A DNA stretch of 64,000 nucleotides from Bombyx mori (taxonomy: Eukaryota > Arthropoda > Insecta > Lepidoptera > Bombycidae): NCBI RefSeq assembly GCF_030269925.1, contig NC_085129.1:18095501-18159500 (forward strand), given 5' to 3'. Positions 14,046-51,966 of this stretch are shown one piece after another. Positions within the stretch are counted from its first letter, which is position 1. Every line of letters begins with the position of its first letter. The notes beneath the pieces were generated by a model. It worked only from the letters and a program-made list of their open reading frames with translations, was not told the DNA's origin and ran no database searches. The position numbers and the translations under genes were made by a program.

Positions 14046-15230
14046 TTAGGCAATCAATTCCTCTAATAAAGTTTTAAATTCGTTCCACGGGCAGTAACCA
14101 TCTTTGTCTACGGTGCAAGCCTTCAATTCTAAAGTAGTAAATTCAGGGGGCTCATCAAGAGACAATTTCACTCCGTTCCTCATTTTATCTGCAGTTTGAT
14201 ATACATATTCTATTTTCATATGATAGCTCCCGTTGAGCATGTTGAACCATTTCTGAAACACAATCTTCCCTCCAGCCGGTACGGCTTCATACTGACCATG
14301 TAAAACATGAGGCTTAAAGTCCATTGCGCTTAGAACTGTGTAAATGTTCGCATCGTGACCCATAAGTAATACAACTTTAGGGCTATTATCGTTCAATAAA
14401 AAACTTGATAGGTAACCTAATAATGGTTTTGACAAATCTAGAGATATTAATTTAATAGTGAAAATAGCATTGAGATAAGCTCTGCTCAAATTTAATATTG
14501 TACTCCATTCATCTTCAGATTTTATTTGTCCCCATGCCACTTCGTTCGATGGAAACCCCTCATAATATTCCATAATGAAGGAATCCACCACAGATTTGCT
14601 TAATTTCAACGGACCTGATATGAATGGCTTCTTTCCTGTAATAACCATTGGACGGTTCTCATCTGTCAGCATATCACAGAGACCCTCTTGTTTACAAAGT
14701 GGCGAATTCTTGTAATCTAAAATATTTTCTATGGTAGTATAAGAAGTATTCAAATGTAAAGAATTCAAATAATCCTTCATTTGGTTCAAAGCTTCCTGTC
14801 GAAACTTAAATGTGGAGTTATGAATAAACGGACTGAATATTGGATCTGCTCGATCGGAATGGTGCACAGTGATGTTGCAGTCGGAATAACCTTTTGTGAC
14901 AAATGCTTCTGCAGATGCTACCGTTCTCTGAGCTGTGTTTGCATAAACATATAGTGTGTCATCGCTCGGGCACTGGTTCTGTATCAAACCTTTTTGTTGT
15001 AGCCATTCAGAGAAAAACTCACCCATGTATCCCTCTAGAAGCCTTCCTTTCGACGTTAAGTAACCACTTTTTTCTCTCCAGGAAGGCCATTGTCTTGGGG
15101 AAGTTTGCGGTAATGATTTAGACAATGGAGTCCTCACATTATGCCTACTAAGCAACAAAACCTTTTCGAGTATCAGTTCAGAATTCGAATACGAAATCAA
15201 AATGATGAAACATGTTAAAAACTTTAACAT
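14046..15230 (-). CDS. Glucose-1-phosphatase (Agp)-like secreted histidine phosphatase, divergent copy
   Basis: A 394-residue, single-exon gene. It has an N-terminal hydrophobic signal peptide (about residues 1-17), then LLLSRHNVRTP (R29, H30: the phosphohistidine nucleophile loop; RHN rather than the usual RHG of acid phosphatases) and MGHDAN (H292, D293: catalytic acid/base). Further blocks are QWPSW, KGRLLEGYMGEF, CP...VYAN..QRTVA, SPLCKQEGLC, SGPLKLS, YYEGFPSNEVAWG, GGKIVFQKW and the C-terminal CTVDKDGYCPW. These follow bacterial periplasmic glucose-1-phosphatase along the whole protein, in order and at matching length. The expected reaction is hydrolysis of glucose-1-phosphate or other sugar phosphates, outside the cell or in the gut lumen. 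It is more diverged from the other five copies here than they are from each other, and by eye the closest to the bacterial form. Histidine acid phosphatase is the safe call; Agp is the more specific one. Confidence 0.9.
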   Translation of the reverse strand: MLKFLTCFIILISYSNSELILEKVLLLSRHNVRTPLSKSLPQTSPRQWPSWREKSGYLTSKGRLLEGYMGEFFSEWLQQKGLIQNQCPSDDTLYVYANTAQRTVASAEAFVTKGYSDCNITVHHSDRADPIFSPFIHNSTFKFRQEALNQMKDYLNSLHLNTSYTTIENILDYKNSPLCKQEGLCDMLTDENRPMVITGKKPFISGPLKLSKSVVDSFIMEYYEGFPSNEVAWGQIKSEDEWSTILNLSRAYLNAIFTIKLISLDLSKPLLGYLSSFLLNDNSPKVVLLMGHDANIYTVLSAMDFKPHVLHGQYEAVPAGGKIVFQKWFNMLNGSYHMKIEYVYQTADKMRNGVKLSLDEPPEFTTLELKACTVDKDGYCPWNEFKTLLEELIA

Positions 15231-15312
15231 ATTTTACAAAATATAGTGCTATAAAGTTAACGCGGTCTGCCTTCGGTACACAACATGAATAATTCGTATT
15301 TGGAAAGGCAAA

Positions 15313-15320
15313 TTATATAA
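15313..15320 (-). promoter_or_regulatory. Possible TATA box of the 14046-15230 gene
   Basis: TATATAAT read on the - strand, about 85 bases upstream of the start codon. Position alone supports it. Confidence 0.3.
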
Positions 15321-15838
15321 TACGATTGGAATCGACCGACCGGTTGCAACGATTCACAATGAAAATCTAAATTTATATTTATTGCTCTTACGACGGTTGA
15401 AAGGTATTTGCGAACTAGGTCCATTACTGCAAAAAAAAGTGGCTACGTAATTCCGCTAATGACATTGGATGTTATCCAAATAGCATACCTATATTTATGA
15501 AGTTCAACACATAATTTTCTATTCAAAAGTAAAAAATAACTACAAAAAAAGGACATAAACATAAAATAACTTAATTGACATACAAACAGACTTCCAAGCA
15601 TAGATAATAAATACACATAGCATGATGTTAACATGCACTTAACTCGCGATGTTGTCAAACAATAAATACCTACTTAATGTCTTTGTTTTGACAATTGACA
15701 CAAATTGTAAAGTATGATTTGAAAAACATTTAGCCTATGAATTTATTACTTGTAAAATTCATTTAGTTTTCAGGAAAGAACACAACCATGAAACTTATCA
15801 TTTTTTTAATTCTTTCCTATACTATAGTATAATCTTTA

Positions 15839-15870
15839 ATTCTTTCCTATACTATAGTATAGGAAAGAAT
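15839..15870. repeat. Perfect 32-bp palindrome
   Basis: attctttcctatacta followed by its exact reverse complement. A partial copy of the left arm and centre lies immediately before (about 15809-15832). Confidence 0.85.
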
Positions 15871-16079
15871 CTACTAAACGAAGAAGAAAGAAATTATGCT
15901 ACTAAACGAAATCGTCATTTCCCACATGATAAGAAGCACAGTGTGTGTACTCGTATCGATCAAATTATGCTGGTGCTTAAATCCAGTTAGTAATTAACTA
16001 TTTTTGCCGTTGAAATACCTACTTAACAAAATAAATGTTATATTCGCAAACATTTAAATTTGCATAAAATTGCTTATAG

Positions 16080-16215
16080 GCAGTCTTGTGAGTCCGCGTG
16101 CCTATTTCTACCACGAAGCAATAATATGTGCCGGTTTGAAGAGCGGGATGCCACTTATGATATATAAAAATTTGTTAGACCTTATGAAGGTGGTCGCATT
16201 TGCATTGTCTATAAA
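16080..16215 (+). repeat. Degenerate Bm1 SINE
   Basis: It keeps cttgtgagtccgcg, cctatttct-ccacgaagcaat and ggtggtcgcatttgcattgt, with deletions between them. It is an old copy. Confidence 0.65.
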
Positions 16216-16219
16216 AAAA

Positions 16220-17290: not shown

Positions 17291-17296
17291 AGCTCA

Positions 17297-17465
17297 GTGT
17301 GCTTAGTGCGATTTTTTTAACGTTCTCGATAGCGTAAAAGTTATATTATATTTGTATGGAGTTGGAACGTTCGCCTACGTTTGCCGCTAAGGGCACTGTC
17401 TCAACTGCATACGTTGGGTTACTTTTACGCTATCGAGAACGTTAAAAAACTCACACTAAGCACAC
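17297..17465. mobile_element. Foldback MITE (about 46-bp terminal inverted repeats)
   Basis: The left arm, gtgtgcttagtgcgattttt then aacgttctcgatagcgtaaa, is matched by the right arm acttttacgctatcgagaac...cactaagcacac on the other strand with only a few mismatches. The spacer is about 77 bp. There is no ORF. A remnant of its right half is at about 62806-62858. Confidence 0.75.
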
Positions 17466-17591: not shown

Positions 17592-18821
17592 TTAATACTT
17601 ATTTATTAATTTCATGAAATCATCCCACGGACATAAACCATTTTTATCGATCGCGCAATCTTTGATCCCCAGTGTAACTCGTAATGGCGGGTTTTGAAAG
17701 TTGATTTTAACACCATTTCTTAATTGATCCCAAGACAGATAAACGTATTCTACTTTCAAATAATAATCACCGGCCACGTCCTTCCATTTTTGAAATATAA
17801 TCTTCCCGCCTACGGGGTACGGCTCGTACTGCTTAGGTATCACAAACGGATTGAAACCTAAAGCGTTGGTTATTAAGTTCAAATTCACATCGTGGCCCAC
17901 GATCAATGCAAATTTAATATTTTCATTTGTGAATATAGATCTTAAATATCTGATCGTAGGTCGGGCAGTATCCTTGACAGCTGAGGGAATATTAAACCGT
18001 ATTTGTTCATCCATAGCTGTTATTTTAGTTAGAACTTTCCATTGCTCGGGACTAGTGATTTCTCCCCACGCAACTTCTTCCAGTGGACGTCCTTCGTAGT
18101 AACTCATTATGAAATTATCAACTACTTCATTTCCTATTGTCAAAGGTCCGTTCAGCTCCAGTTCCTCGCCAGCGTGATAAAGTATAATATTCTTATCGTG
18201 GACCAAATCGCAGAATCCTTCTCTTTCGCATTTTTTAGAGTGTTTTAAGTCGATAATCTTGTCTAATTCTTCGTAGGCATCTGTTAGTTTATATTTGGCG
18301 AGCATTTCCTCGATTTCTTCGACAACTTTTCGTTTGTAGGACTCGGTAGTGTTATGAATATAATAATTAAAGGTGAGGTCATTTTTTTTAAAATCCTTTT
18401 CATACTTCACGTTTATATTACAGTCAGGGAATGCGGCATCGACAAACGCCTTCGCAGTAGCTATGGTTCGTTTCGTATTATTCGCATAAACCAAAACAGT
18501 TTCTTTGTCGGGACATGTTCCGGGTAAGAGTTGATTCTCTATCACCCATTTCGTTAGATATTCGCCCATGTAGCCTTCCAATAAAGCTCCTTTTTCCGTC
18601 AACAGGCCCGGCTCTTTGGACCATTTCGGAAATATTTTGTTCGTGTATTCATCTATGCGGTTTGAAAATGAAACCCTTATGTTGTGACGACTAAAAATTA
18701 ATACTTGCTCGAGGTGTAGACAGCCAACGCCGGATAATAATAAAAAATAAAAAGTTACCGCCAACATTTCGTTCACAGTGCGCGTTGAATTAAAAAAAAA
18801 AACTTGCCTATGCTTTGACAT
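17592..18821 (-). CDS. Agp-like secreted histidine phosphatase, copy 2
   Basis: A 409-residue, single-exon gene. Signal peptide-like segment after M19 (LAVTFYFLLLSGVGC); catalytic IFSRHNIR (R45, H46) and VGHDVN (H310, D311); C-terminal CAIDKNGLCPW. After the RHN motif this copy reads RVSF where the others have RAPI or RVPL, so the usual proline of the RHxxRxP loop is lost, which may alter activity. The Met before LAVTF may be the true start, since upstream sequence adds a basic stretch ahead of the signal peptide and the start at 50782 differs there. A poly(A) signal (AATAAA on the - strand) lies near 17551. Its upstream flank (to about 19160) resembles that of the 50782 copy. Confidence 0.9.
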   Translation of the reverse strand: MSKHRQVFFFNSTRTVNEMLAVTFYFLLLSGVGCLHLEQVLIFSRHNIRVSFSNRIDEYTNKIFPKWSKEPGLLTEKGALLEGYMGEYLTKWVIENQLLPGTCPDKETVLVYANNTKRTIATAKAFVDAAFPDCNINVKYEKDFKKNDLTFNYYIHNTTESYKRKVVEEIEEMLAKYKLTDAYEELDKIIDLKHSKKCEREGFCDLVHDKNIILYHAGEELELNGPLTIGNEVVDNFIMSYYEGRPLEEVAWGEITSPEQWKVLTKITAMDEQIRFNIPSAVKDTARPTIRYLRSIFTNENIKFALIVGHDVNLNLITNALGFNPFVIPKQYEPYPVGGKIIFQKWKDVAGDYYLKVEYVYLSWDQLRNGVKINFQNPPLRVTLGIKDCAIDKNGLCPWDDFMKLINKY

Positions 18822-19200: not shown

Positions 19201-19204
19201 TTTT

Positions 19205-19795: not shown

Positions 19796-21102
19796 CCTAG
19801 TCAGGTCATAAATTCTGTCACATGTTTAATGTAAAATAATTGAAACAAGTTTATTCATTATGTAACCATTAATATACCAAAATGAATTTAACAAAACATA
19901 GATTCTTATGACACTAAAGTTTATTCAAAATGACCTCCGTGATTTTGAATACAGGCCTTCAATCTGCGCGGCCAGTCGTCTATCGCAGCACGAACGAGGT
20001 CCATGTCAATATCGGCGGCTGCCTTAATCAAGGATGTCTTGAGTGACTCCAAATTGGGATGAGGCTTTGAGCACGCCTTTTCCTCCAAGTGTTGCCATAT
20101 CTTGTAATCTAACGGATTCAAATCTGGACTGGAGGAGGGCCAGTCTTCGTGCCGGATGAAGTCGATTTCACGCGCCGCCAGCCAGTCTTGTGTGCTCTTC
20201 GCTCTATGAGCTGGCGCCGAATCTTGTTGGAATACCCAGTGCCTGTTATTGAACATGGTATGAGAAACAGGTTCCACAAGGTTCGTCAGGACTGTATTTT
20301 GATACACAACTGCATTCGTTTTTACACCTTTCTCACAAAAATGTACCTCTGTTAAGCCCCAATAAGAAACTCCCAACCATACCATGAGCGAGGATGGAAA
20401 ATGACCTCGTTGGACACGCGGAATGCGGTTGCTCGCTTCTTCACTACTGTGTGCGTACACCTTATCATTTTGTTTGTTGTAGCTCTCTTCTACGGTAAAA
20501 ATTTTTTCATCCGAAAAAAGAATTTCCCGATATTTTTTTCCCGCGTACCGCTTCAACAAAGCGCGGCATCTCTTCTGTCTCAGGTCCATTAGACGAGCAT
20601 TCAAACGATGTCCTGTTTTTCTTCGATATGCCCGAAGCCCTAAGTCTTCATTTAACACCCTTTTCACCGTGGTCCTGCTTAACCCCATCTGAAGGGCCAA
20701 CAGTTTCTGCTTACGTTTGGGATTTCTTTGAATTCGCGCCTTCACAGCTTTTATCACTGCTGGAGTCCTAACAGACCGAGGGTGACCACTTCTTGACCTG
20801 TCATCTACACTAGAGTCTTCATTGTATCGTTTGATGGTGCGATAAACGAATCTTTTGGTTATATTCAAATTTTTCAGTATGTTAAAAATTTGAATTGGCG
20901 CGTAACCGCAACGATGCAACGCAATAACTGCAACACGGTCTTCTTTAAGCGTCCACTCCATATTTAAAAATGAGTAAAATTCTAAAAGTATACATTTTTA
21001 TTTTCATGAACAATTCGAAATTCGAATTCAATAAACTTTTTTGTGGCCAGCATTCTAAAAGAAAAGTTTTTACTGTGTGACAATACTTATGACCTGACTA
21101 GG
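19796..21102 (-). mobile_element. Mariner (DD37D, maT-like) transposon, apparently complete
   Basis: Terminal inverted repeats cctagtcaggtcataa(a/g)t.. at 19796 and, inverted, ending at 21102 match over about 27 bases with few mismatches. They are flanked by the TA target duplication (19794-19795, 21103-21104). The element is 1,307 bp with one uninterrupted transposase gene on the - strand. Confidence 0.92.
19921..20961 (-). CDS. Mariner transposase (DD37D)
   Basis: 346 residues, the full family length. The N-terminal paired-type helix-turn-helix DNA-binding region covers residues about 1-110 (VAVIALHRCGY, ITKRFVYRTIKRY, SRTTVKRVLNEDLG). The catalytic triad is D151 (FSDEKIF), D247 (FQQDSAP) and D285 (NPLDYKIW). 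Counting gives 37 residues between the second and third Asp, the DD37D signature of maT-type mariners. The WPSSSPDLNPLD motif is intact. It cuts at the inverted repeats and reinserts at TA. No stop or frameshift is seen. Confidence 0.93.
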   Translation of the reverse strand: MEWTLKEDRVAVIALHRCGYAPIQIFNILKNLNITKRFVYRTIKRYNEDSSVDDRSRSGHPRSVRTPAVIKAVKARIQRNPKRKQKLLALQMGLSRTTVKRVLNEDLGLRAYRRKTGHRLNARLMDLRQKRCRALLKRYAGKKYREILFSDEKIFTVEESYNKQNDKVYAHSSEEASNRIPRVQRGHFPSSLMVWLGVSYWGLTEVHFCEKGVKTNAVVYQNTVLTNLVEPVSHTMFNNRHWVFQQDSAPAHRAKSTQDWLAAREIDFIRHEDWPSSSPDLNPLDYKIWQHLEEKACSKPHPNLESLKTSLIKAAADIDMDLVRAAIDDWPRRLKACIQNHGGHFE

Positions 21103-34737: not shown

Positions 34738-35967
34738 TTAATACTTATTTATTAATTTTATAAAATCATCCCACGGACATAAACCATTTTTATCGATCGC
34801 GCAGTCTTTGATTCCCAGTGTAACTCGTAATGGCGGATTTTGAATGTTAATTTTATCGCCATCTCTTATTTGATTCCAAGACAGATAAACGTATTCTACT
34901 TTCAAATAATAATCACCGGCCGCGTCTTTCCATTTTTGAAATATAATTTTCCCGCCTACGGGGTACGGCTCGTACTGCTCAGGTAACACAAACGGATTAA
35001 AACCTAAAGCGTCGGTTATTAAGTTCAAATTAGTGTCGTGGCCCACGAGCAAAGCAAGTTTAATATTTTCATTTGTGAATATAGACCTCATATATCTGAT
35101 CGTAGGTCGGGCAGTATCCTTGACAGATGAGGGAATATTAAACCGTATTTTTTGATCCATAGCCGTTATTTTAGTTAGAACTTTCCATTGCTCGGGACTA
35201 GTGACTTCTCCCCACGCAACTTCTTCCAGCGGACGTCCTTCGTAGTAACTCATTATAAAATTATCAAGTACTTCATTTCCTATTGTCAGAGGTCCGTTCA
35301 ACTCCAGTTCCTCGCCAGCGTGATAAATTACAATATTCTTATCGTGGACCAAATCGCAGAATCCTTCAGTTTCGCATATTTTAGAGGTTTTTATGTCGAT
35401 AATCTTGTCTAATTCTTCGTAGGCATCTGTTAGATTATATTTGGCGAGCATTTCCTCGATTTCTTCGAGTACTTTTCTTTTATAGGAGTCGGTGGAGTTA
35501 CGAATAGCATAATTAAAGGTGACGTCATATTTTTCAAAATCCTTTTTATACTTCACGTTTATATTACAGTCAGGGAATGCGGCATCGACAAACGCCTTCG
35601 CAGTAGCTATGGTTCGTCTCTTGTTATTCGCATAAATCAAAACGGTTTCTTTGTCGGGGCACGTTCCGGGTAAGAGTTGATTCTCTCTCATCCATTTCGT
35701 TAGATATTCGCTCATATATCCTTCTAATAAGACTCCTTTTTCTGTCAGCAGGGCCGGCTCTTGGGACCATTTCGGAAATATTTTGTTCGTGTATTCCTCT
35801 ATGTCTTTTGTTATTGGAGCCCTTAGGTTGTGACGACTAAAAATTAAGACTTGCTCGACGCGCAGACAGCCAACGCCGGATATTAATAAAAAATAAAAAG
35901 TTACTGCGATCATATCGTTCACAGTGCGCGTTGAATTAAAAAAAAACTTATGCCTGTGCTTTGACAT
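34738..35967 (-). CDS. Agp-like secreted histidine phosphatase, copy 3
   Basis: 409 residues, single exon. Catalytic IFSRHNLRAP (R45, H46) and VGHDTN (H310, D311); the complete set of family blocks (KGVLLEGYM, YANNKRRTIATA, YYEGRPLEEVAWGEV, GGKIIFQKW, CAIDKNGLCPW). A signal peptide-like segment follows M19 (IAVTFYFLLISGVGC). An AATAAA signal (- strand) lies near 34697. This copy is close to, but clearly distinct from, the twin copies at 41925 and 45721. Confidence 0.9.
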   Translation of the reverse strand: MSKHRHKFFFNSTRTVNDMIAVTFYFLLISGVGCLRVEQVLIFSRHNLRAPITKDIEEYTNKIFPKWSQEPALLTEKGVLLEGYMSEYLTKWMRENQLLPGTCPDKETVLIYANNKRRTIATAKAFVDAAFPDCNINVKYKKDFEKYDVTFNYAIRNSTDSYKRKVLEEIEEMLAKYNLTDAYEELDKIIDIKTSKICETEGFCDLVHDKNIVIYHAGEELELNGPLTIGNEVLDNFIMSYYEGRPLEEVAWGEVTSPEQWKVLTKITAMDQKIRFNIPSSVKDTARPTIRYMRSIFTNENIKLALLVGHDTNLNLITDALGFNPFVLPEQYEPYPVGGKIIFQKWKDAAGDYYLKVEYVYLSWNQIRDGDKINIQNPPLRVTLGIKDCAIDKNGLCPWDDFIKLINKY

Positions 35968-39782: not shown

Positions 39783-40256
39783 TAGCCGGACTTGAAGTCG
39801 TCGTGGCCTAAAGGATAAGACGTCCGGTGCATTCGTATCGAGCGATGTACCGGTGTTCGAATCCCAGGCGGGTACCAATTTTGCTAATGAAATACGTACT
39901 CAACAAATGTTCACGATTGACTTCCACGGTGAAGGAATAACATCGTGTAATAAAAATCAAACCGGCAAAATTATAATTTGCATAATTACTGGTGGTAGGA
40001 CCTCTTGTGAGTCCGCCCGGATAGGTACCACCACCCTGCCTATTTCTGCCGTGAAGCAGTAATGCGTTTCGGTTTTAAGGGTGGGGCAGCCGTTGTAACT
40101 ATACTGAGACCTTAAAACTTATATCTCAAGGTGGGTGGCGCATTTACGTTGTAGACATCTACATGTCCCACAGACATTCTATGGGCTCCAGTAACCACTT
40201 AACACCAGCTGGGCTGTGAGCTCGTCCACCCATCTAAACAATAAATAAATAAAATA
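39783..40256 (+). repeat. Bm1 SINE, full length with small internal duplication
   Basis: Starts at the tRNA-like head (gtcgtcgtggcctaaagg, ggtgttcgaatcccaggcgg) and ends ctaaacaataaataaataaa. Near 40150-40185 an extra gtagacatctacatgtcc-like stretch is inserted. Confidence 0.93.
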
Positions 40257-40466
40257 CTTAAAGGCGGCACAGTTTCACTCAACAACTGCAACCATTTCGA
40301 CGGGAGCTGTACGATTTTAGCCTGAAATATTTACAAACAAAATATTTTTTGTATAATAATTATTAAATATATTCATTCTATAATTACATCTACACTAATC
40401 TATTCACTTACACTGTATATATAACTTATAACAAGCTTCAACTTAAATCCTCATGTACTAAAATAA

Positions 40467-40852
40467 TCTTACACCGGTAAGAGTAACGCCATCTATCGCC
40501 GAATAGCCGAACTAATATCGAAGATTCTAGTAACATCTAGAACGCTCGAGAAGTACAATGCCATCTATTGTGAGATAGCGGAAACACACAATACTCGACT
40601 TTTGTGGAATATTCTAGATAATTCTAGGGATGTCGTATCGGCTATAAAAGCGTTGCAGAGATGGCACGCAGTCAGTTTGTAATCAGAACTACTTGAAGCG
40701 AAACAACGAACGGATCACCTGAAGCGAAGCGGAAGAAGCGAACTGAGAATTTTAAAGTGTTTGTGAAGTGTTTTAAGTGTTGTAAGGGATAAATACAATG
40801 TTAACTTGTAATTCGGTAGAATTTTATTTATCCCGAGCCCCAGCGTGTAACA
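40467..40852 (+). mobile_element. Solo LTR-like cassette with heat-shock-type promoter (copy 1)
   Basis: Ends tcttacaccgg...gcgtgtaaca, which is TGTTACAC/GTGTAACA inverted ends with one change. AATAA lies at 40462-40466 and 40855-40859, fitting a 5-bp target duplication within two bases. Repeat unit I has the matching empty site near 32785-32800. Inside, HSE-like pentamers, TATAAAA and an arthropod TCAGT initiator are in canonical order. No internal retroelement genes are present. A duplicated hsp-type promoter is the alternative. Confidence 0.6.
40520..40674 (+). promoter_or_regulatory. Phased heat-shock elements, TATA box and initiator
   Basis: 40520-40552 reads GAAgaTTCtaGTAacATCtaGAAcgCTCgaGAA broken into 5-base steps. 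40607-40629 reads GAAtaTTCtaGATaaTTC, also in 5-base steps. TATAAAA follows at 40643-40649 and TCAGT at 40672, about 29 bases on. This is the layout of a heat-shock promoter. Nothing on the + strand downstream is an obvious target gene. Confidence 0.55.
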
Positions 40853-41392
40853 ACAATAACAATTATTAAATAAAAAGTAAAAAGTAATTAAATAAAAAGC
40901 TATAGGATATTAATCCCAAACCCTTTATTTTTTTTTAATTTATCTATCAATACTACTTATATTGAAATATCTTATTTAACAGAAATTGATGACAAATAGA
41001 CTGTTTTACTACATAGATAAAAGGTACAATACTATGTATATCGATTTACCAAGAAATAATGTGGGAACTGAATTTTTAATAAGCATATTAAAATTTAGTG
41101 ATAGTATAGAGCACTTCTCAAAATGTCTGCTGCAAACCTGAATGTTACTGTACTATGTATGAATGTACTCTAAATGAATTTTACTCTGTTTTCCTGAATA
41201 CAGATCTCCATTTATAAATTTTTTTACAATACACAAAATGTTACGAATATCTAATCAATAAAAACGTTATTTTCAATATTTATTATAATTATCTCTCAAT
41301 TTGTTCTACTGATAAAGTTGGTGCATGTTTATGGAAGGGACCTTCAAATACGTAAATGACATAAGTTTTTAGTACCTAGTCTTTATTGATCA

Positions 41393-41687
41393 CTAGCTGA
41401 CCCGGCAGACTGCGTAGTGCCTTAATCGATAAATAAAAGATCTAAACTTTTGTTTCTAATAAACATAAAACAAACAAAATGAATCCGTCCGACAGGGGAC
41501 ACATCAAAGTAAAAACAAAATTGTTATTTTTATTTAATTCCGAGCATTATCATATTTATCTACCTTTTAAACCTTCTCTGGACTTCCACAAATAATTCAA
41601 GACCAAAATTAGCCAAATCGGTCCAGCCGTTCTCTAGTTTTAGCGAGACTAACTAAGACTAAAGCAATTCATTTTTATATATTAAGA
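41393..41687 (-). mobile_element. Helitron copy (unit II)
   Basis: - strand ends: TC at 41687-41686 (TCTTAATATATAAAAATG) and GGCA...TGCC hairpin then GGGTCAGCTAG at 41393. Flanked by A and T. Its 5' side has lost about 0.8 kb of unit sequence that is still present at 33710-34535 and 49325-50560. Confidence 0.7.
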
Positions 41688-41924
41688 TTAGTGCCAAAAA
41701 GTTTAAAAATTGACCCGGAGTAAGATGACCCGTAAGAGTAAGATGACGCTATATAGTTGAATGTATTTCGCCTTTGAATGAGAACTTCACCCCCTGCTAT
41801 ATTCTTTGAATTTCCGAATTCGAAAATATATTGCAGTAGAACAAGAACAATATGCATAATTTACTTAAAATTGTGTTTATTTTGTTTTATACACATACAC
41901 ATTAATTATGAAATTAACGAAAAT

Positions 41925-43154
41925 TTAATACTTATTTATTAATTTTATGAAATCATCCCACGGACATAAACCATTTTTATCGATCGCGCAGTCTTTGATT
42001 CCCAATGTAACTCGTAATGGCGGGCTTTGAATGTTAATTTTAACGCCATCTCTTAATTGATTCCATGACAGATAAACGTATTCTACTTTCAAATAATAAT
42101 CACCGGCCGCGTCTTTCCATTTTTGAAATATAATCTTCCCGCCTACCGGGTACGGCTCGTACTGCTCAGGTAACACAAACGGATTGAAGCCTAAAGCGTT
42201 GGTTATTAAGTTCAAATTCGCATCGTGGCCCACGAGCAAAGCAAGTTTAATATTTTCATTTGTGAATATAGACCTCATATATCTGATCGTAGGTCGGGCA
42301 GTATCCTTGACAGATGAGGGAATATTAAACCGTATTTTTTGATCCATAGCCGTTATTTTAGTTAGAACTTTCCATTGCTCGGGACTAGTGATTTCTCCCC
42401 ACGCAACTTCTTCCAGAGGACGTCCTTCGTAGTAACTCATTATAAAATTATCAACTACTTCATTTCCTATTGTCAGAGGTCCGTTCAACTTCAGTTTGTC
42501 GCCAGCGTGATAAATTACAATATTCTTGTCGTGGACCAAATCGCAGAATCCTTTAGTTTCGCATATTTTAGAGGTTTTTATGTCGATAATCTTGTCTAAT
42601 TCTTCGTAGGCATCTGTTAGTTTACAATTGGCGAGCATTTCCTCGATTTCTTCGAGTACTTTTTGTTTGTAGGCTTCGGTGGTGTTATGAATAGCATAAT
42701 TAAAAGTGATGTCATGTATATCAAAATCCTTTTCATACTTCACGTTTACATTGCAGTCAGGGAATGCGGCATCGACAAACGCCTTCGCAGTAGCTATGGT
42801 TCGTCTCTTGTTATTCGCATAAATCAAAACGGTTTCTTTGTCGGGACACGTTCCGGGTAAGAGTTGATTCTCTGTCATCCATTTCGTTAGATATTCGCCC
42901 ATGTAGCCTTCCAATAAGGCCCCCTTTTCCGTCAGCAGGGCCGGCTCCAAAGACCATTTCGGAAATATTTTGTTTGTGTATTCTTCTGTGTCTTTTGTTA
43001 TTGGAGCCCTTATGTTGTGACGACTAAAAATTAAGACTTGCTCGAGGCGCAGACAGCCAACGCCGGATATTAATAAAAAATAAAAAGTTACTGCGATCAT
43101 ATCGTTCACAGTGCGCGTTGAATTAAAAAAAAACTTATGCCTGTGCTTTGACAT
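41925..43154 (-). CDS. Agp-like secreted histidine phosphatase, copy 4 (twin of 45721)
   Basis: 409 residues, single exon. Signal peptide about residues 19-34, IFSRHNIRAP (R45, H46), VGHDAN (H310, D311) and conserved cysteines including CAIDKNGLC. The protein is identical to that at 45721-46950. AATAAA (- strand) lies near 41876. The ~450 bp upstream are shared with copies 34738 and 45721, so these three probably share a promoter type. Function as for the family: hydrolysis of sugar phosphates after secretion; the substrate is inferred from bacterial Agp. Confidence 0.92.
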   Translation of the reverse strand: MSKHRHKFFFNSTRTVNDMIAVTFYFLLISGVGCLRLEQVLIFSRHNIRAPITKDTEEYTNKIFPKWSLEPALLTEKGALLEGYMGEYLTKWMTENQLLPGTCPDKETVLIYANNKRRTIATAKAFVDAAFPDCNVNVKYEKDFDIHDITFNYAIHNTTEAYKQKVLEEIEEMLANCKLTDAYEELDKIIDIKTSKICETKGFCDLVHDKNIVIYHAGDKLKLNGPLTIGNEVVDNFIMSYYEGRPLEEVAWGEITSPEQWKVLTKITAMDQKIRFNIPSSVKDTARPTIRYMRSIFTNENIKLALLVGHDANLNLITNALGFNPFVLPEQYEPYPVGGKIIFQKWKDAAGDYYLKVEYVYLSWNQLRDGVKINIQSPPLRVTLGIKDCAIDKNGLCPWDDFIKLINKY

Positions 43155-44298
43155 TTGCCAAACGTATCAACGGAGCCACGTTACAAACACAACTGGATTG
43201 AATATTTTTACATTTATGGAGATAATATTCGTCTCATCAAAATCAGTACGAATTAGTTTCGTATTTGTTATGAGAGTCGCGTGATGAAATCACAACAATG
43301 TTTTTTTAACATTTTTTTGTTCAGGTTTTTTTGCTTATTACAATTATGTAAAATTTCGAACAATAATAAGTTCTTTAAATTATTCCTACTACACTACTAA
43401 TTAACATTAAATCGACACTGATTTAACTTTACATAATCAAATCATTTAATCTCACAGGCATAAGAATAGAGATATATTTTTAAATTTAAGTCATTCAAAC
43501 GAAACATAAACATGTCAGCTTTCCATTACAAAAATAGCAGACAACTTGAATTGGATTTAATAAATTTGTTTCATAATGATAATAGTTCTTGCCTATAGTT
43601 CATGGTAACGGGTCACAACCTTGTACGAAAACATTACATCTGTAATCACTAACTTTGCTTCGTCGTACATTTCATGAATTTTAAAATAGCATTATACCTA
43701 GTTATAGATAATATTGGGGCGTGAATCGAAATACAGCAGAACGTGTATTCAAGACTTTTATTAGGTTTAATAACATATCAATAAAATAAAAACAGGTTTC
43801 TACATATACTGGGTGTTAGGAGACCACTTCCGAAAACGAAGACAGACGATAGTAGGTACTAATGACACCTTTGATTATGGAACGGAAAAAAATCGAAACT
43901 GATTTAAAAAAAAAAAATTTAAAATGTTTTGTTAGCATTATTTACGCTTCATCGTGTTATACATTCATTCGTAGTTTATTTTTTGGCATAGATGAATAAT
44001 TTTGTGTTCAGTATCAGTCATTTGTTACAAAATATAGTTCTGGTACCTATCTTTGTTTGATACCCTTTCAATTTTTTCCATATTATTCATACTTGAAGGC
44101 GGCACTGTTTCATTCAACAACTGTAACCTATCAATTTCGACGGGAGCTGTACGATTTTAGCCTGAAATATTTACAAGCAAAAAAATTAATTTTGTTATAA
44201 TAAGTATAATATTTTCAATGTTAATTATGTACATTTACACTAATCTATTTACTTACACTGTATATTATTATATAACTTATAACAAGCTTTAACTTAAA

Positions 44299-44656
44299 TC
44301 GCCATCTATCGCCGAATAGCCGAACGAATATAGAAGGCTCTGGTAGCATCTAGAACGCTCGAGAAGTACAACGCCATCTATTGTCAGATAGCGGAAACAC
44401 ACAATACTCGACTTTTGTGGAATATTCTCGATAATTCTAGAGATGTGGTATTGGCTATAAAAGCGTTGCAGAGATGGCACACAGTCAGTTTGTAATCGGA
44501 ACTACTCGAAGCGAAACAGCGAACGGATCACCTGAAGCGAAGCGGAAGAAGCGAATTGAGACTTTTAAAGTGTTTGTGAAGTGTTCTAAGTGATAAATAC
44601 AGTGTTAACTTGTAATTCGGTAGAATTTTATTAATCCCGAACCCCAGCGCGTAGCA
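44299..44656 (+). mobile_element. Solo LTR-like cassette (copy 2), left end deleted
   Basis: Starts inside the element (cgccatctatcgccgaatag) and keeps GAAtaTTC, TATAAAAG and the gtcagtttgtaatc initiator region. Ends ccccagcgcgtagca. Confidence 0.6.
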
Positions 44657-45188
44657 ATAATAACAATTATTAAATGAAAAGTAAAAAGTAATTAAATGAA
44701 AAGCTATAGGATATTAATCCCAAACCCTTTATTTATTTTTTTAATTAAATTAACAATACTACATAAATTTAATTAACTTATTTAACAGAAAATAATGACA
44801 AATACACTGTTTTACTACATAGATATAAGGCACAATACTATGTATATCGATTTACCAAGAAATAATTTTGGAACTGAATTTTAGTAAACATATTTGGTGA
44901 TAGTATAAGGTACCTACTTCTCAAAATGTCTGCTGCAAAGCGGAATGTTACTATAAATGTAGGTATTATACTCTGTTTTCCTGAGTACAGATATCCATTT
45001 ATTAAGATTTTATTTACAATACACAATATATTACGAATATCTAATCAATGAAAACGTTATTTTCAATATTTATTATATCTCTCAATTTGTTCTACTGACA
45101 AAATTGGTGGATGTTTATGGAAGGGACCTTCAAATACGTAAAGTTTAGATGACATAAGTTTTTAGTAGCTACTTAGTCTTTATTGATC

Positions 45189-45483
45189 ACTAGCTGACCC
45201 GGCAGACTGCGTAGTGCCTTAATCGATAAATAAAAGATCTAAACTTTTTTATAAAATAAACATAAAGCAAACAAAAGAAATCCGTCCGACAGGGGACACA
45301 TCAAAGTAAAAACAAAATTGTTATTTTTATTTAATTCCGAGCATTATCATATTTATCTACTTTTAAACCTTCTCTGGACTTCCACAAATAATTCAAGACC
45401 AAAATTAGCCAAATCGGTCCAGCCGTTCTCTAGTTTTAGCGAGACTAACTAAGACTAAAGCAATTCATTTTTATATATTAAGA
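45189..45483 (-). mobile_element. Hybrid Helitron at the duplication junction
   Basis: The low-coordinate half (to about 45362: tttttataaaataaacataa, atctacttttaaacc) matches the copy at 48985. The high half (from about 45447: ctaactaagactaaagc) matches the copy at 41393. The exchange point lies in the shared 80 bases between. Confidence 0.75.
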
Positions 45484-45720
45484 TTAGTGCCAAAAAGTTT
45501 AAAAATTGACCCGGAGTAAGATGACCCGTAAGAGTAAGATGACGCTATATAGTTGAATGTATTTCGCCTTTGAATGAGAACTTCACCCCCTGCTATATTC
45601 TTTGAATTTCCGAATTCGAAAATATATTGCAGTAGAACAAGAACAATATGCATAATTTACTTAAAATTGTGTTTATTTTGTTTTATACACATACACATTA
45701 ATTATGAAATTAACGAAAAT

Positions 45721-46950
45721 TTAATACTTATTTATTAATTTTATGAAATCATCCCACGGACATAAACCATTTTTATCGATCGCGCAGTCTTTGATTCCCA
45801 ATGTAACTCGTAATGGCGGGCTTTGAATGTTAATTTTAACGCCATCTCTTAATTGATTCCATGACAGATAAACGTATTCTACTTTCAAATAATAATCACC
45901 GGCCGCGTCTTTCCATTTTTGAAATATAATCTTCCCGCCTACCGGGTACGGCTCGTACTGCTCAGGTAACACAAACGGATTGAAGCCTAAAGCGTTGGTT
46001 ATTAAGTTCAAATTCGCATCGTGGCCCACGAGCAAAGCAAGTTTAATATTTTCATTTGTGAATATAGACCTCATATATCTGATCGTAGGTCGGGCAGTAT
46101 CCTTGACAGATGAGGGAATATTAAACCGTATTTTTTGATCCATAGCCGTTATTTTAGTTAGAACTTTCCATTGCTCGGGACTAGTGATTTCTCCCCACGC
46201 AACTTCTTCCAGAGGACGTCCTTCGTAGTAACTCATTATAAAATTATCAACTACTTCATTTCCTATTGTCAGAGGTCCGTTCAACTTCAGTTTGTCGCCA
46301 GCGTGATAAATTACAATATTCTTGTCGTGGACCAAATCGCAGAATCCTTTAGTTTCGCATATTTTAGAGGTTTTTATGTCGATAATCTTGTCTAATTCTT
46401 CGTAGGCATCTGTTAGTTTACAATTGGCGAGCATTTCCTCGATTTCTTCGAGTACTTTTTGTTTGTAGGCTTCGGTGGTGTTATGAATAGCATAATTAAA
46501 AGTGATGTCATGTATATCAAAATCCTTTTCATACTTCACGTTTACATTGCAGTCAGGGAATGCGGCATCGACAAACGCCTTCGCAGTAGCTATGGTTCGT
46601 CTCTTGTTATTCGCATAAATCAAAACGGTTTCTTTGTCGGGACACGTTCCGGGTAAGAGTTGATTCTCTGTCATCCATTTCGTTAGATATTCGCCCATGT
46701 AGCCTTCCAATAAGGCCCCCTTTTCCGTCAGCAGGGCCGGCTCCAAAGACCATTTCGGAAATATTTTGTTTGTGTATTCTTCTGTGTCTTTTGTTATTGG
46801 AGCCCTTATGTTGTGACGACTAAAAATTAAGACTTGCTCGAGGCGCAGACAGCCAACGCCGGATATTAATAAAAAATAAAAAGTTACTGCGATCATATCG
46901 TTCACAGTGCGCGTTGAATTAAAAAAAAACTTATGCCTGTGCTTTGACAT
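45721..46950 (-). CDS. Agp-like secreted histidine phosphatase, copy 5 (twin of 41925)
   Basis: Same 409-residue protein as 41925-43154 with the same catalytic residues (R45, H46, H310, D311). The flanks are also duplicated (AATAAA signal about 45672), so it should be expressed the same way. Either a very recent duplication or gene conversion explains the identity; an assembly artefact from two haplotypes must be excluded. Confidence 0.9.
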   Translation of the reverse strand: MSKHRHKFFFNSTRTVNDMIAVTFYFLLISGVGCLRLEQVLIFSRHNIRAPITKDTEEYTNKIFPKWSLEPALLTEKGALLEGYMGEYLTKWMTENQLLPGTCPDKETVLIYANNKRRTIATAKAFVDAAFPDCNVNVKYEKDFDIHDITFNYAIHNTTEAYKQKVLEEIEEMLANCKLTDAYEELDKIIDIKTSKICETKGFCDLVHDKNIVIYHAGDKLKLNGPLTIGNEVVDNFIMSYYEGRPLEEVAWGEITSPEQWKVLTKITAMDQKIRFNIPSSVKDTARPTIRYMRSIFTNENIKLALLVGHDANLNLITNALGFNPFVLPEQYEPYPVGGKIIFQKWKDAAGDYYLKVEYVYLSWNQLRDGVKINIQSPPLRVTLGIKDCAIDKNGLCPWDDFIKLINKY

Positions 46951-48094
46951 TTGCCAAACGTATCAACGGAGCCACGTTACAAACACAACTGGATTGAATA
47001 TTTTTACATTTATGGAGATAATATTCGTCTCATCAAAATCAGTACGAATTAGTTTCGTATTTGTTATGAGAGTCGCGTGATGAAATCACAACAATGTTTT
47101 TTTAACATTTTTTTGTTCAGGTTTTTTTGCTTATTACAATTATGTAAAATTTCGAACAATAATAAGTTCTTTAAATTATTCCTACTACACTACTAATTAA
47201 CATTAAATCGACACTGATTTAACTTTACATAATCAAATCATTTAATCTCACAGGCATAAGAATAGAGATATATTTTTAAATTTAAGTCATTCAAACGAAA
47301 CATAAACATGTCAGCTTTCCATTACAAAAATAGCAGACAACTTGAATTGGATTTAATAAATTTGTTTCATAATGATAATAGTTCTTGCCTATAGTTCATG
47401 GTAACGGGTCACAACCTTGTACGAAAACATTACATCTGTAATCACTAACTTTGCTTCGTCGTACATTTCATGAATTTTAAAATAGCATTATACCTAGTTA
47501 TAGATAATATTGGGGCGTGAATCGAAATACAGCAGAACGTGTATTCAAGACTTTTATTAGGTTTAATAACATATCAATAAAATAAAAACAGGTTTCTACA
47601 TATACTGGGTGTTAGGAGACCACTTCCGAAAACGAAGACAGACGATAGTAGGTACTAATGACACCTTTGATTATGGAACGGAAAAAAATCGAAACTGATT
47701 TAAAAAAAAAAAATTTAAAATGTTTTGTTAGCATTATTTACGCTTCATCGTGTTATACATTCATTCGTAGTTTATTTTTTGGCATAGATGAATAATTTTG
47801 TGTTCAGTATCAGTCATTTGTTACAAAATATAGTTCTGGTACCTATCTTTGTTTGATACCCTTTCAATTTTTTCCATATTATTCATACTTGAAGGCGGCA
47901 CTGTTTCATTCAACAACTGTAACCTATCAATTTCGACGGGAGCTGTACGATTTTAGCCTGAAATATTTACAAGCAAAAAAATTAATTTTGTTATAATAAG
48001 TATAATATTTTCAATGTTAATTATGTACATTTACACTAATCTATTTACTTACACTGTATATTATTATATAACTTATAACAAGCTTTAACTTAAA

Positions 48095-48452
48095 TCGCCA
48101 TCTATCGCCGAATAGCCGAACGAATATAGAAGGCTCTGGTAGCATCTAGAACGCTCGAGAAGTACAACGCCATCTATTGTCAGATAGCGGAAACACACAA
48201 TACTCGACTTTTGTGGAATATTCTCGATAATTCTAGAGATGTGGTATTGGCTATAAAAGCGTTGCAGAGATGGCACACAGTCAGTTTGTAATCGGAACTA
48301 CTCGAAGCGAAACAGCGAACGGATCACCTGAAGCGAAGCGGAAGAAGCGAATTGAGACTTTTAAAGTGTTTGTGAAGTGTTCTAAGTGATAAATACAGTG
48401 TTAACTTGTAATTCGGTAGAATTTTATTAATCCCGAACCCCAGCGCGTAGCA
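48095..48452 (+). mobile_element. Solo LTR-like cassette (copy 3)
   Basis: Exact 3,796-bp counterpart of 44299-44656. Confidence 0.6.
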
Positions 48453-48984
48453 ATAATAACAATTATTAAATGAAAAGTAAAAAGTAATTAAATGAAAAGC
48501 TATAGGATATTAATCCCAAACCCTTTATTTATTTTTTTAATTAAATTAACAATACTACATAAATTTAATTAACTTATTTAACAGAAAATAATGACAAATA
48601 CACTGTTTTACTACATAGATATAAGGCACAATACTATGTATATCGATTTACCAAGAAATAATTTTGGAACTGAATTTTAGTAAACATATTTGGTGATAGT
48701 ATAAGGTACCTACTTCTCAAAATGTCTGCTGCAAAGCGGAATGTTACTATAAATGTAGGTATTATACTCTGTTTTCCTGAGTACAGATATCCATTTATTA
48801 AGATTTTATTTACAATACACAATATATTACGAATATCTAATCAATGAAAACGTTATTTTCAATATTTATTATATCTCTCAATTTGTTCTACTGACAAAAT
48901 TGGTGGATGTTTATGGAAGGGACCTTCAAATACGTAAAGTTTAGATGACATAAGTTTTTAGTAGCTACTTAGTCTTTATTGATC

Positions 48985-49257
48985 ACTAGCTGACCCGGCA
49001 GACTGCGTAGTGCCTTAATCGATAAATAAAAGATCTAAACTTTTTTATAAAATAAACATAAAGCAAACAAAAGAAATCCGTCCGACAGGGGACACATCAA
49101 AGTAAAAACAAAATTGTTATTTTTATTTAATTCCGAGCATTATCATATTTATCTACTTTTAAACCTTCTCTGGACTTCCACAAATAATTCAAGACCAAAA
49201 TTAGCCAAATCGGTCCAGCCGTTCTCTAGTTTTAGCGAGACTAACAAACAGCAATTC

Positions 49258-49324
<67 letters not shown>
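48985..49324 (-). mobile_element. Helitron copy with expanded TA end
   Basis: Same 3' end as the copies at 41393 and 45189, but the 5' end has grown into a long (TA)n run (49260-49322) before tagA|T. It continues into gattggaaaaacgaattcac, which matches the empty site gatcatttgaaaaactaatt at about 33705-33725 in unit I. Confidence 0.75.
49259..49322. repeat. (TA)n microsatellite
   Basis: About 31 TA units inside the Helitron terminus. Confidence 0.95.
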
Positions 49325-49505
49325 TTGGAAAAACGAATTCACGCCCCACTTGATAATAAGTAGATACGCTGCGTGGCAAAACATAAATGCCGCCACCCAC
49401 TTGCGACAACTATGTGAGGTATGATAGTACGAGTTATAATTCTAACGACTGTCTCGATCGAATCTGAACATAATATGATAGCTTGGCAGCAGGAATAGGG
49501 CCACT

Positions 49506-49738
49506 ATACTGGTGGTAGGCACGGGTAGGTACCACCATCCCGCCTATTTCCGCCGTGAAGCAGTAATGCGTTTCGGTTCGAAGGGTGGGGTAGCCGTTGT
49601 AACTATACTGAGACCTTAGAACTTATATCTCGAGGTGGGTGGCGCATTAACGTTTTAGATGTCTATGGGCTCCAGTAACCACTTAACATCAGGTGGGCTG
49701 TGAGCTCGTCCATCCATCTAAGCAATAAAAAAAAAATT
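49506..49738 (+). repeat. Bm1 SINE, 5' truncated
   Basis: actggtggtaggcacgggta through ctaagcaataaaaaaaa. The empty site is visible at 33886-33900 (ggaatagggccactagttgg). Confidence 0.9.
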
Positions 49739-50194
49739 TTGGTGCTAGTGCATACAAATGAATTAATAGTATTTCTGTTAGCAAATTATATATAGCGAAA
49801 ATATTGCAAGGTCACCGCTATCGAAGCATCCAAATAGCATTTCGTTTTCGATCTTCGATTGTCGTCGGTCCTTATTAAGTATACCAAATTTTGAGTTAAT
49901 CCGGCGTTTTGAAGGAGTTCAAAATCATGTTCAAAGATTCCATTACATACATACGTCTAAAGCTAATAAAAGCGTATTAAAAAGTAAATACTTACGAGCC
50001 TTTAACGAAAAATTATATATTTTGGAGCCAGATTAAATTCAAGGAGAATTCAAGAATGAGTTTTTCACTGCCAAATTGTCTAATATTTGCACAAGGCTAA
50101 AAGTTCGTACAAATTAATAATAAAAAACAAAGTAGCTCATAAATCCAGAAAGAATCAAAATCGATTTAAAAATTTAAAAACGTTACGCCATTAT

Positions 50195-50407
50195 TATTTT
50201 TTTAAAGGATTTTATGACCCGATAACTAAGATCTTTAAGTCGTGTCTTATTTTAATTTATATTCTTATTTTTATAAAATGTCGCAAATTAATCATCTTCA
50301 TTACATTTCACTCCATAATATAATTTTTCATAAAAATATGAATATAAATTAAAATAAGATATGACTTAAAGGTCTCAGTTACCAGGTCATAAATTCCCTT
50401 AAAAAAA
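50195..50407. mobile_element. Foldback MITE with ~70-bp inverted repeats
   Basis: The left arm tttaaaggattttatgaccc...tcttatttttat and the right arm ataaaaatatgaatataaat...gtcataaattcccttaaa are inverted copies with scattered mismatches. The spacer is about 50 bp. A half copy is at 3268-3370. Confidence 0.75.
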
Positions 50408-50781
50408 TTATTAAAAATAAAAATTGTTGATAATACCGGTTCGTGTTTGTAACAAATTGTTTTTTGTTTCCAAAATAGTTCCAACTTCTACCAATACTAA
50501 TATTTTTTATTGAGTCACAACTCATGTCTGAGTGATCTATGATGAGTTTAATAGATTATTAGTGCCAAAAAGTCTCAAAATTGACGGGCCAGCAGGAGTA
50601 AGATGACGCTAGTTGAATGTATTTCGCCTTTGAATGAGAACTTCACCCCCTGCTATATTCTTTCAATATCCGAAGCGAAGGTATCGAATAGGTACTGCAG
50701 TGTAGAAATAATATGCATAATTCACACAAAACAGTGTTTATTTCGTTTTGTACACATACACATTATGAAATTAATGAAATT

Positions 50782-51966
50782 TTAATACTTATTCAAAAAT
50801 TTTAAGAAATCATCCCACGGACAGAGATCATTTTTATCGATCGCACATTCTTTGAGCTCCAGTGTTTCTCGTAATGGCGGGTTTTTAAAGTTGATTTTAA
50901 CGCCATCTCTTATTTGATTCCAAGACTGATAAACGTATTCTACTTTCAAATAATAATCACCGGCCACGTCCTTCCATTTTTGAAATATAATCTTCCCGCC
51001 TACCGGGAACGGCTCGTACTGCTCTATTAGCACAAACGGATTGAAGCCTAAAGCGTTGGTTAATATGTTGAAATTCGTGTCGTGGCCCACGAGCAGAGCA
51101 AATTTAAGATTTTCGTTCGAGAATATAGACCTCATATATCTGATCGTAGGTCGGGCGGTATCCTTGACAGCTGAAGGAATATTAAATCGCATTTGTTGAT
51201 CCTTAACCGCTATTTTAGTTAGGACTTCCCATTGCTCGGGACTAGTCACTTCTCCCCACGCAACTTCTTTCAACGGACGTCCTTCGTAGTAACTCATTAT
51301 GAAATTATCAACTACGGAATTCCCTATTCTCAGAGGACCGTTCAGCTCTAGTTCTTCGCCAACGTGATAAATTACAATATTCTTGTCGTGGACCAAATCG
51401 CAGAATCCTTGAGTTTCGCATATTTTAGAGGTTTTTATGTCGATAATCTTGTCTAATTCTTCGTAGGCATCTGTTAGTTTACAATTGGCGAGCATTTCCT
51501 CGATTTCTTCGAGTACTTTTTGTTTGTAGGCTTCGGTGGTGTTATGAATAGCAGAATTGAAGATGATGTCATGTATATCAAAATCCTTTTTATGCTTCAC
51601 GATTACATTGCAGTCAGGGAATGCGGCATCGACAAATGCCTTCGCAGTAGCTATGGTTCGTCTCTTATTATTCGCATAAATCAAAACGGTTTCTTTGTCG
51701 GGACACGTTCCGGGTAAAAGTTGATTCTCTCTCATCCATTTCGTTAGATATTCGCTCATATGACCTTCCAATAAGGCTCCTTTTTCCGTCAGCATGCCCG
51801 GCTCTTGGGACCATTTCGGAAATATTTTGTTCGTGTATTCATCTATATGTTTTGATAGTGGAACTCTTAAGTTGTGACGACTAAAAATTAATACTTGCTC
51901 AAGGCGTAGACAGCCAACGCCGGATAATAATAAAAAATTAAAAGTTACCGCCAACATATCGTTCAC
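50782..51966 (-). CDS. Agp-like secreted histidine phosphatase, copy 6
   Basis: 394 residues, single exon. Signal peptide right at the N-terminus (MNDMLAVTFNFLLLSGVGC), IFSRHNLRVP (R30, H31), VGHDTN (H295, D296), and C-terminal CAIDKNDLCPW. The upstream ATG used in the 409-residue frames of the other copies is lost here (ATG to ATT-like change at about 52006), while a new Met appears two codons before the conserved one. This supports the Met before (I/L)AVTF as the natural start of the family. The 3' flank resembles that of copy 34738 and the 5' flank that of 17592, so this unit may be mosaic. Confidence 0.9.
   Translation of the reverse strand: MNDMLAVTFNFLLLSGVGCLRLEQVLIFSRHNLRVPLSKHIDEYTNKIFPKWSQEPGMLTEKGALLEGHMSEYLTKWMRENQLLPGTCPDKETVLIYANNKRRTIATAKAFVDAAFPDCNVIVKHKKDFDIHDIIFNSAIHNTTEAYKQKVLEEIEEMLANCKLTDAYEELDKIIDIKTSKICETQGFCDLVHDKNIVIYHVGEELELNGPLRIGNSVVDNFIMSYYEGRPLKEVAWGEVTSPEQWEVLTKIAVKDQQMRFNIPSAVKDTARPTIRYMRSIFSNENLKFALLVGHDTNFNILTNALGFNPFVLIEQYEPFPVGGKIIFQKWKDVAGDYYLKVEYVYQSWNQIRDGVKINFKNPPLRETLELKECAIDKNDLCPWDDFLKFLNKY

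Follow-up and report, generated by a model that had tools for sequence, protein, structure and literature searches.

The window, a 64,000-nucleotide stretch of the Bombyx mori genome on contig C23 (at least 18.16 Mb long), contains six single-exon frames, all on the - strand, of 394 or 409 codons and with zero internal stops. The open reading frame check thus bears out the original prediction of six intronless minus-strand genes. The array consists of one clade A paralogue (g1) and five clade B copies (g2-g6). At 14046..15230, g1 encodes a glucose-1-phosphatase-like protein and corresponds to BGIBMGA011204, the member of the published series with the lowest coordinate (394 aa, 1185 bp; PMC3252269). 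It is followed by g2 (17592..18821), g3 (34738..35967), g4 (41925..43154), g5 (45721..46950) and g6 (50782..51966). By order and length, g2, g3, g4 and g6 map to BGIBMGA011203, BGIBMGA011202, BGIBMGA011201 and BGIBMGA011199, respectively, and g5 is matched to BGIBMGA011200 by an equal published spacing of 3796 bp. The listed frames of g2-g5 contain a second in-frame ATG immediately ahead of a hydrophobic stretch, and that of g6 begins with GTG, three codons upstream of its ATG. The proteins are likely to comprise 394 aa (g1) and 391 aa (g2-g6), which are also the lengths published for the silkworm genes (PMC3252269).

Both the array and its interpretation as a bacterial transfer go back to publications of 2011. 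Li et al. (2011; PMC3252269) reported six tandem intron-free glucose-1-phosphatase genes on the minus strand of silkworm chromosome 23 and ascribed them to an ancient bacterial transfer, with Serratia (top hit) or Aggregatibacter (tree) as donor; Zhu et al. (2011; PMC3116507) reported one of these genes, BGIBMGA011204, and named Edwardsiella. The published series BGIBMGA011199-011204 agrees with the array in gene number, orientation, lack of introns, chromosome, protein lengths and the spacing of 3796 bp between the fourth and fifth genes, but differs in the other four spacings and in one copy, which was a 187-aa fragment in 2011. The present analysis adds a split of the family into clades A and B, active-site changes in clade A, a complete g5 and a possible intron in g1; the first two and the last are not described in the available part of PMC3252269.

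All six proteins match the Pfam domain His_Phos_2 (PF00328) with 39.2-58.6 bits (cut-off 23.6). In the NCBIfam scan, which covered five proteins because g5 is identical to g4, the top family was in every case the bifunctional glucose-1-phosphatase (NF007553), matched over nearly the full length with 423.1 (g1), 377.2, 380.5, 385.4 and 380.1 bits. None of the five reaches the equivalog cut-off of 425 bits, g1 falling just under it and the other four clearly so, and therefore the same substrate use should not be assumed. The second-ranked family, E. coli AppA phytase, belongs to the same superfamily and shares its motifs, but scores less than half as high as Agp and is only 25-27% identical to g4 and g1. 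The closest solved structures to g2 are those of Agp (6rmr, E 4e-89; 1nt4, E 5.5e-89). E. coli Agp (b1002) aligns with g1 over its whole length at 40.8% identity, sharing the catalytic residues and six cysteines, while its N-terminal leader is different.

Catalysis in Agp uses His18, Asn19, Arg21, Arg94 and Asp290 (PMC8938923). The RHN and GHD motifs, as well as His18, Arg21, Arg94 and Asp290, are present in all six window proteins. Across the lepidopteran rows that have the column, His18, Arg94, His289 and Asp290 (Agp numbering) are invariant, and among the 40 rows with the motif Asn19 is replaced in five and Arg21 in two. The six Agp cysteines align in all five distinct window proteins; five of them occur in 42 of 42 lepidopteran rows and the sixth in 41. 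The conserved blocks and cysteines were originally described as following bacterial Agp, which holds for the whole-length alignment and the cysteines but not for the proline of RHNxRxP, as g2 has Ser at this position (RHNIRVS). Values of dN/dS among g2, g3, g4 and g6 are 0.31-0.45.

The N-terminal hydrophobic stretch looks, by eye, like a signal peptide. The first AATAAA lies 33-99 nt downstream of the stop codons, and N-glycosylation sequons occur at three positions where all 12 bacterial rows lack them, E. coli Agp included. Together these features are consistent with a domesticated secreted gene, and they fit the eukaryotic secretion and poly(A) context that had been proposed for the array.

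Transposon frames lie around the array. Among nine other long frames scanned, four matched reverse transcriptase, one helix-turn-helix domains together with a sub-cut-off transposase (which we take to be mariner-like) and one a low-complexity match, while three matched nothing; the statement that the other genes here have introns finds little backing in such a set. Rfam matches to mir-2780 and mir-2822 fall within transposon-like frames, the latter on the opposite strand, and mir-2807 was matched at 17341-17421. None of the three was accepted as a component of the array.

In BLASTP searches, g1 matched 12 bacterial Agp proteins with E values of 1e-115 to 1e-128 and seven animal acid phosphatases with 0.002 to 1.2; for g4 the top animal acid phosphatase match had an E value of 1.3e-4. 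Identity of g1 and g4 to the 12 bacterial proteins is 37-44% (40-44% for g1 alone). Two overlapping trees were built, one of 76 rows and a second of 36 of the same rows, with no root inferred; venom acid phosphatases were not among the named samples. All sampled lepidopteran Agp-type rows form a single clade beside bacterial Agp (97 SH-aLRT with 76 rows, 99/97 with 36), and Agp and Lepidoptera are split from AppA with 93 and 91/62, respectively. The sampled animal acid phosphatases group by themselves with full support, set off by a very long branch (100, n=11; 100/100, n=6), so that in both trees the lepidopteran proteins stand apart from the sampled animal enzymes rather than inside the insect acid phosphatases, the placement originally named as one that would refute the transfer. 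Support for bacterial Agp as a single group is 52 in the larger tree and 86/83 in the smaller, and the trees therefore leave the donor unnamed. Among the matches listed, relatives come from at least 34 named species of Lepidoptera, including two of Bombyx. We consider it highly probable that the six genes descend from one bacterial agp-type gene, probably gammaproteobacterial, that was transferred to a lepidopteran ancestor. The transfer itself thus agrees with the original prediction of an ancient bacterial gene in the moth lineage, while the recipient has to be placed further back than a single moth lineage, among the forebears that many moths and butterflies have in common.

The division into clades A and B is common to butterflies, pyraloids, noctuids and hawkmoths. 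Within Bombyx the two clades are 37-39% identical, which is about equal to the distance of each from Agp. Clade A differs from Agp at positions 196, 287 and 291 (E196K, V287M, S291A); E196K and S291A are each found in 25 of 25 rows, at positions that are invariant in the 12 bacterial rows. In clade B, E196 is retained in 13 of 17 rows, g4 being among the proteins with K at this position. Derived residues are common to both clades, with L215M seen in all 42 rows and V58G in 39 of 40. The tandem arrangement of the five clade B copies conforms to the predicted amplification after transfer.

The low identity between A and B could also reflect two separate bacterial transfers. This appears quite improbable, given that A and B fall into the one well-supported lepidopteran clade and share the derived residues just mentioned; linkage of A and B is suggested, too, by locus numbers that follow directly on each other in Mythimna separata and by matches on equal-length contigs in Chilo and Diatraea. 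Still less credence can be given to vertical descent from an old histidine acid phosphatase of animals whose bacterial character is only apparent. An AU test with the lepidopteran and animal acid phosphatases constrained together was not rejected (p 0.233), but the tree is unrooted and, the root being absent from the data, this test chiefly asks whether Agp groups with the long-branched AppA; as rooting evidence it is ill-posed and was set aside. Vertical descent is contradicted by the disparity between bacterial (E <=1.4e-115) and animal (E >=0.002) matches of g1, and would require loss in every other sampled animal. Although insect lysosomal and prostatic-type acid phosphatases share the PF00328 superfamily with the array, they have almost no BLASTP similarity to it; the silkworm lysosomal-type protein places in the animal clade of the 76-row tree, and its gene lies in several genomic pieces whereas the array genes are unsplit. 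All named relatives among 33 hits and among 120 listed of 723, many of which are unnamed, are lepidopteran or bacterial, with no other animal.

Intronless genes for bacterial-type proteins might equally be expected from bacterial contamination of the assembly, but the chance of this is negligible: the genes lie amid transposon frames on a very long contig, their GC content (0.376-0.397) matches that of the whole window (0.380), their identity to bacterial Agp is far from complete, and relatives are spread over many lepidopteran species. A more serious question concerns g4 and g5, which are identical and lie in a perfect tandem duplication (41564..49245), in which 41564-45449 equals 45360-49245 over 3886 bp with 0 mismatches and a unit of 3796 bp. 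Such perfection would be expected if the assembly had written a single copy twice, and the disagreement of four of the five intergene spacings between the 2011 table (PMC3252269) and the present assembly indicates that the region is hard to assemble. On the other hand, two copies 3796 bp apart, the sole agreeing spacing, were already present in the 2011 assembly (PMC3252269), and the spacer recurs in a third, diverged copy on the opposite side of g4 (40254-41682 versus 47885-49269, 85.6%), as expected from a genuine tandem unit. An artefact is accordingly unlikely, if less remote than the other alternatives. In the present assembly g5 is complete, which refines the 2011 table, where its counterpart BGIBMGA011200 is the 187-aa fragment (PMC3252269).

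Searches for a vector or donor gave the following picture. Viral contigs searched with g1 encoded no relative; with a mostly bacterial profile they yielded two loci, 99% identical to E. coli Agp and presumably plain bacterial copies. Phage records gave one match (42.1%), on an unannotated 1746-base record. Matches were found in 879 plasmid records, 817 of them from Escherichia; 38 cover at least 80% of the query, all at less than 60% identity. A viral or mobile vector was rejected, no viral, phage or plasmid match being close to the moth genes. A genome scan for the donor found no relative with g1 as query and 224 relatives with a nine-sequence profile, the best 80 of which are, by title, nearly all Enterobacteriaceae. 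Their ranking reflects similarity to the E. coli protein and cannot name a donor, and these 80 were therefore kept out of the trees.

Under the preferred reading of a single bacterial transfer, one gene for a periplasmic glucose-1-phosphatase/inositol phosphatase would have reached the germ line of a species ancestral to most present-day moths and butterflies and then acquired poly(A) signals, sites for N-glycosylation and a signal peptide of eukaryotic type. Early duplication would have produced a linked pair; in Bombyx, tandem amplification would then have brought B to five copies, with A remaining single in the array. The products are predicted to be secreted, glycosylated histidine acid phosphatases in which the RHN histidine would take the substrate phosphate and the GHD aspartate protonate the leaving group, water then freeing the phosphate. 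In the gut lumen or haemolymph, they might split glucose-1-phosphate so that both its sugar and its phosphate are recovered, and draw further phosphate from inositol phosphates of the diet; we regard this assignment of substrate, tissue and advantage as plausible, with chances slightly below even.

More tentatively, the post-transfer split may have preceded the divergence of butterflies, pyraloids, noctuids and hawkmoths and yielded two enzymes that differ in specificity. The pocket of B would be the more Agp-like, and B the source of tandem expansions, while A, with E196K, V287M and S291A fixed near the catalytic centre, might act on another phosphate ester, perhaps a metabolite of plants or of the haemolymph; g4 and g5 would repeat the E-to-K change within B. 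Transferred genes that are still active and later diverge functionally are useful as test cases, and the A/B pair offers a clean one: one donor gene and one locus, with a near-bacterial pocket set against a fixed change. Hexose-1-phosphatase activity in silkworm blood (Faulkner 1955) has already been tied to these genes (PMC3252269), and the A and B genes could be connected to it.

The genomic copy of g1 is without an intron, yet contains an in-frame stretch of 387 nt, GTGAGT...TTACAG, with consensus splice sites (14636..15022, - strand; coordinates derived from offsets). It is possibly an alternative intron: deletion of the 387 nt from g1 gives exactly the 265-aa protein named isoform X2 by NCBI.

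The six single-exon genes of the original prediction (g1–g6, minus strand, with lower coordinates 14046, 17592, 34738, 41925, 45721 and 50782 in the window) were located on contig C23, positions 18,095,501–18,159,500, and their proposed bacterial origin is correct but already known. Li et al. 2011 tabulated six tandem, intron-free glucose-1-phosphatase genes, BGIBMGA011199–011204, all on the minus strand of chromosome 23, with protein lengths, in the order of the window, of 394, 391, 391, 391, 187 and 391 aa (PMC3252269). The first gene of that series is 1185 bp long, the same as g1 (394 aa). In g2–g5 translation probably starts at the second ATG and in g6 at an ATG three codons inside the listed frame, giving 391 aa in each case. 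The spacing between the fourth and fifth genes is 3796 bp in both the published cluster and the window, but the other four differ (3809, 18641, 6725 and 2113 published; 3546, 17146, 7187 and 5061 here), so the mapping onto the BGIBMGA genes relies on order, strand, lengths and that one spacing (PMC3252269). According to the same authors, the transfer preceded the radiation of Ditrysia or Apoditrysia (PMC3252269). Zhu et al. 2011 describe BGIBMGA011204 as very highly expressed in the head and saw no duplicates of it (PMC3116507), and a 2017 review tabulates the family for seven species (PMC5704228). In the accessible part of the literature on this enzyme in Lepidoptera, Bombyx or the larval midgut, no enzymatic study of these lepidopteran proteins was found; the enzyme's name was also absent among the matches listed for caterpillars and saliva.

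All six proteins exceed the cut-off of the PF00328 profile. For the five distinct ones (g4 and g5 are identical), the best NCBIfam family is bacterial glucose-1-phosphatase Agp (NF007553), with scores of 377–423 bits that fall short of the 425-bit equivalog cut-off; the runner-up is the Escherichia coli phytase AppA (163–206 bits). Agp was also the top match of g2 in a PDB search. Catalysis in Agp is described as involving H18, N19, R21, R94 and D290 (PMC8938923). All six proteins keep R17, H18, R21, R94, H289 and D290 (Agp numbering); in g2, Ser replaces the proline of the RHNxRxP motif.

The expected proximity to bacterial rather than animal enzymes was clear in BLASTP searches, where g1 matched 12 bacterial Agp proteins at 40–44% identity (E 1e-115 to 1e-128) versus E 0.002 to 1.2 for seven animal acid phosphatases; g4 matched the same bacterial proteins at 37–42% identity, with a best animal E of 1.3e-4. 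No non-lepidopteran animal occurs among the named database matches listed (all 33 in one search, 120 of 723 in another; many of the matches are unnamed). A quick tree (tree 1) comprised 76 rows that we selected among database matches: five window proteins (g5 omitted), 39 named and six unnamed members of the lepidopteran clade, 13 Agp proteins from bacteria (five unnamed), E. coli AppA, 11 animal acid phosphatases, and one further unnamed row that was placed among bacteria. A careful tree (tree 2) used 36 of these rows. The lepidopteran rows formed a single clade (support 97 in tree 1, 99/97 in tree 2) apart from that of the animal acid phosphatases (100; 100/100). The split of Agp and Lepidoptera from AppA received 93 in tree 1 and only 91/62 in tree 2, and bacterial Agp formed a single group with 52 and 86/83, respectively. 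A topology constraining Lepidoptera with the animal acid phosphatases was not rejected by the AU test on the tree 2 rows (p 0.233); both trees are unrooted.

Within Lepidoptera, g1 falls in one paralogue group, clade A (95; 100/99), and g2–g6 in another, clade B (98; 100/97). Since each clade includes pyraloids, noctuids and hawkmoths as well as butterflies or skippers, the gene must have duplicated before these groups diverged. Long linkage is suggested by the adjacent numbering of the Mythimna separata loci 011423 (A) and 011424 (B), and by A and B matches on equally long contigs in Chilo and Diatraea. In tree 1, clade B is amplified in Bombyx and, apparently independently, in Mythimna loreyi. 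There g6 groups with a close orthologue from B. mandarina (98), so the array is at least partly older than the split of these two species. Among g2, g3, g4 and g6, dS is 0.12–0.23 and dN/dS 0.31–0.45, indicating purifying selection on average; g4 and g5 are embedded in 3886 bp of perfect identity. A PF00328 scan of the whole genome (461.7 Mb, 30 contigs, E ≤ 0.001) gave 21 matches, including g1, g4, g5 and g6 but neither g2 nor g3. More Agp-type copies may be among the 17 matches outside C23; the two that were inspected, on C22 and C15, are both split on the genome.

A survey of 143 columns invariant across 12 bacterial rows covered 25 clade A rows (two, lacking the N-terminus, uncounted in those columns) and 17 clade B rows. 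In seven columns, at least 95% of the clade A rows share a single different residue, two of these columns (58 and 215) in common with B, where 215 was the sole column switched under the same rule. The remaining clade A switches are T98S, E196K, V287M and S291A (25/25 each) and Q248H (24). Clade B retains T98 in 16/17, E196 in 13/17, Q248 in 11/17, V287 in 17/17 and S291 in 7/17 rows; g4 and g5 have K at position 196, as in clade A. Positions 287 and 291 adjoin the catalytic H289-D290 on either side. In 2003, Lee et al. reportedly described E196 as gating the pocket of Agp; no mention of this was found in the open papers searched.

The products would be secreted histidine acid phosphatases working through a phosphohistidine intermediate; on the best reading, in which we infer both substrate and tissue, they would act on glucose-1-phosphate and inositol phosphates. 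The N-terminal leaders are hydrophobic as judged by eye. Five of the six Agp cysteines are kept in 42/42 lepidopteran rows and the sixth in 41/42. Sequons at Agp precursor positions 133 (A 18/25, B 7/17), 178 (19/25, 0/17) and 275 (23/25, 7/17) occur in 0/12 bacterial rows. The best-conserved lepidopteran sequon, at 155 (41/42), is present in 5/12 bacterial rows and is thus not necessarily a eukaryotic invention. The first AATAAA lies 33–44 nt past the stop in g2–g6 and 99 nt in g1, and GC content is 0.376–0.397 in the six genes versus 0.380 in the whole window.

Within g1, a 387-nt in-frame stretch with consensus splice sites (GTGAGT...TTACAG, 14636–15022, minus strand) is perhaps a new intron within the transferred gene. 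Its excision gives the junction YMG-KKP, exactly as in the Bombyx mori protein that NCBI names isoform X2, which is 100% identical to g1 across the aligned half. Neither splice site is found at the equivalent positions of g2–g6. Isoform X2 would lose the R94 segment and would therefore be expected to be inactive.

Four reverse-transcriptase frames, LINE-like by our reading, are interspersed with and beside the phosphatase genes (5605–8403, plus; 26474–27304, plus; 27484–29838, minus; 38115–39026, plus). A mariner-like transposase frame of 346 aa (19921–20961, minus) contains an Rfam mir-2780 match (20585–20672), so this 'miRNA' family may derive from a transposon; the same may hold for mir-2822, matched at 26991–27057 on the strand opposite to a reverse-transcriptase frame. 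Two minus-strand open frames that read as coiled-coil-like (59779–60147 and 58252–59109) may belong to a host gene with several exons; in neither did any Pfam profile reach its cut-off. A tandem array of a 105-bp unit (61036–62349; 12.5 copies, 99% matches) has a period divisible by three, so the long open frame at 60828–62390 (minus) is probably spurious.
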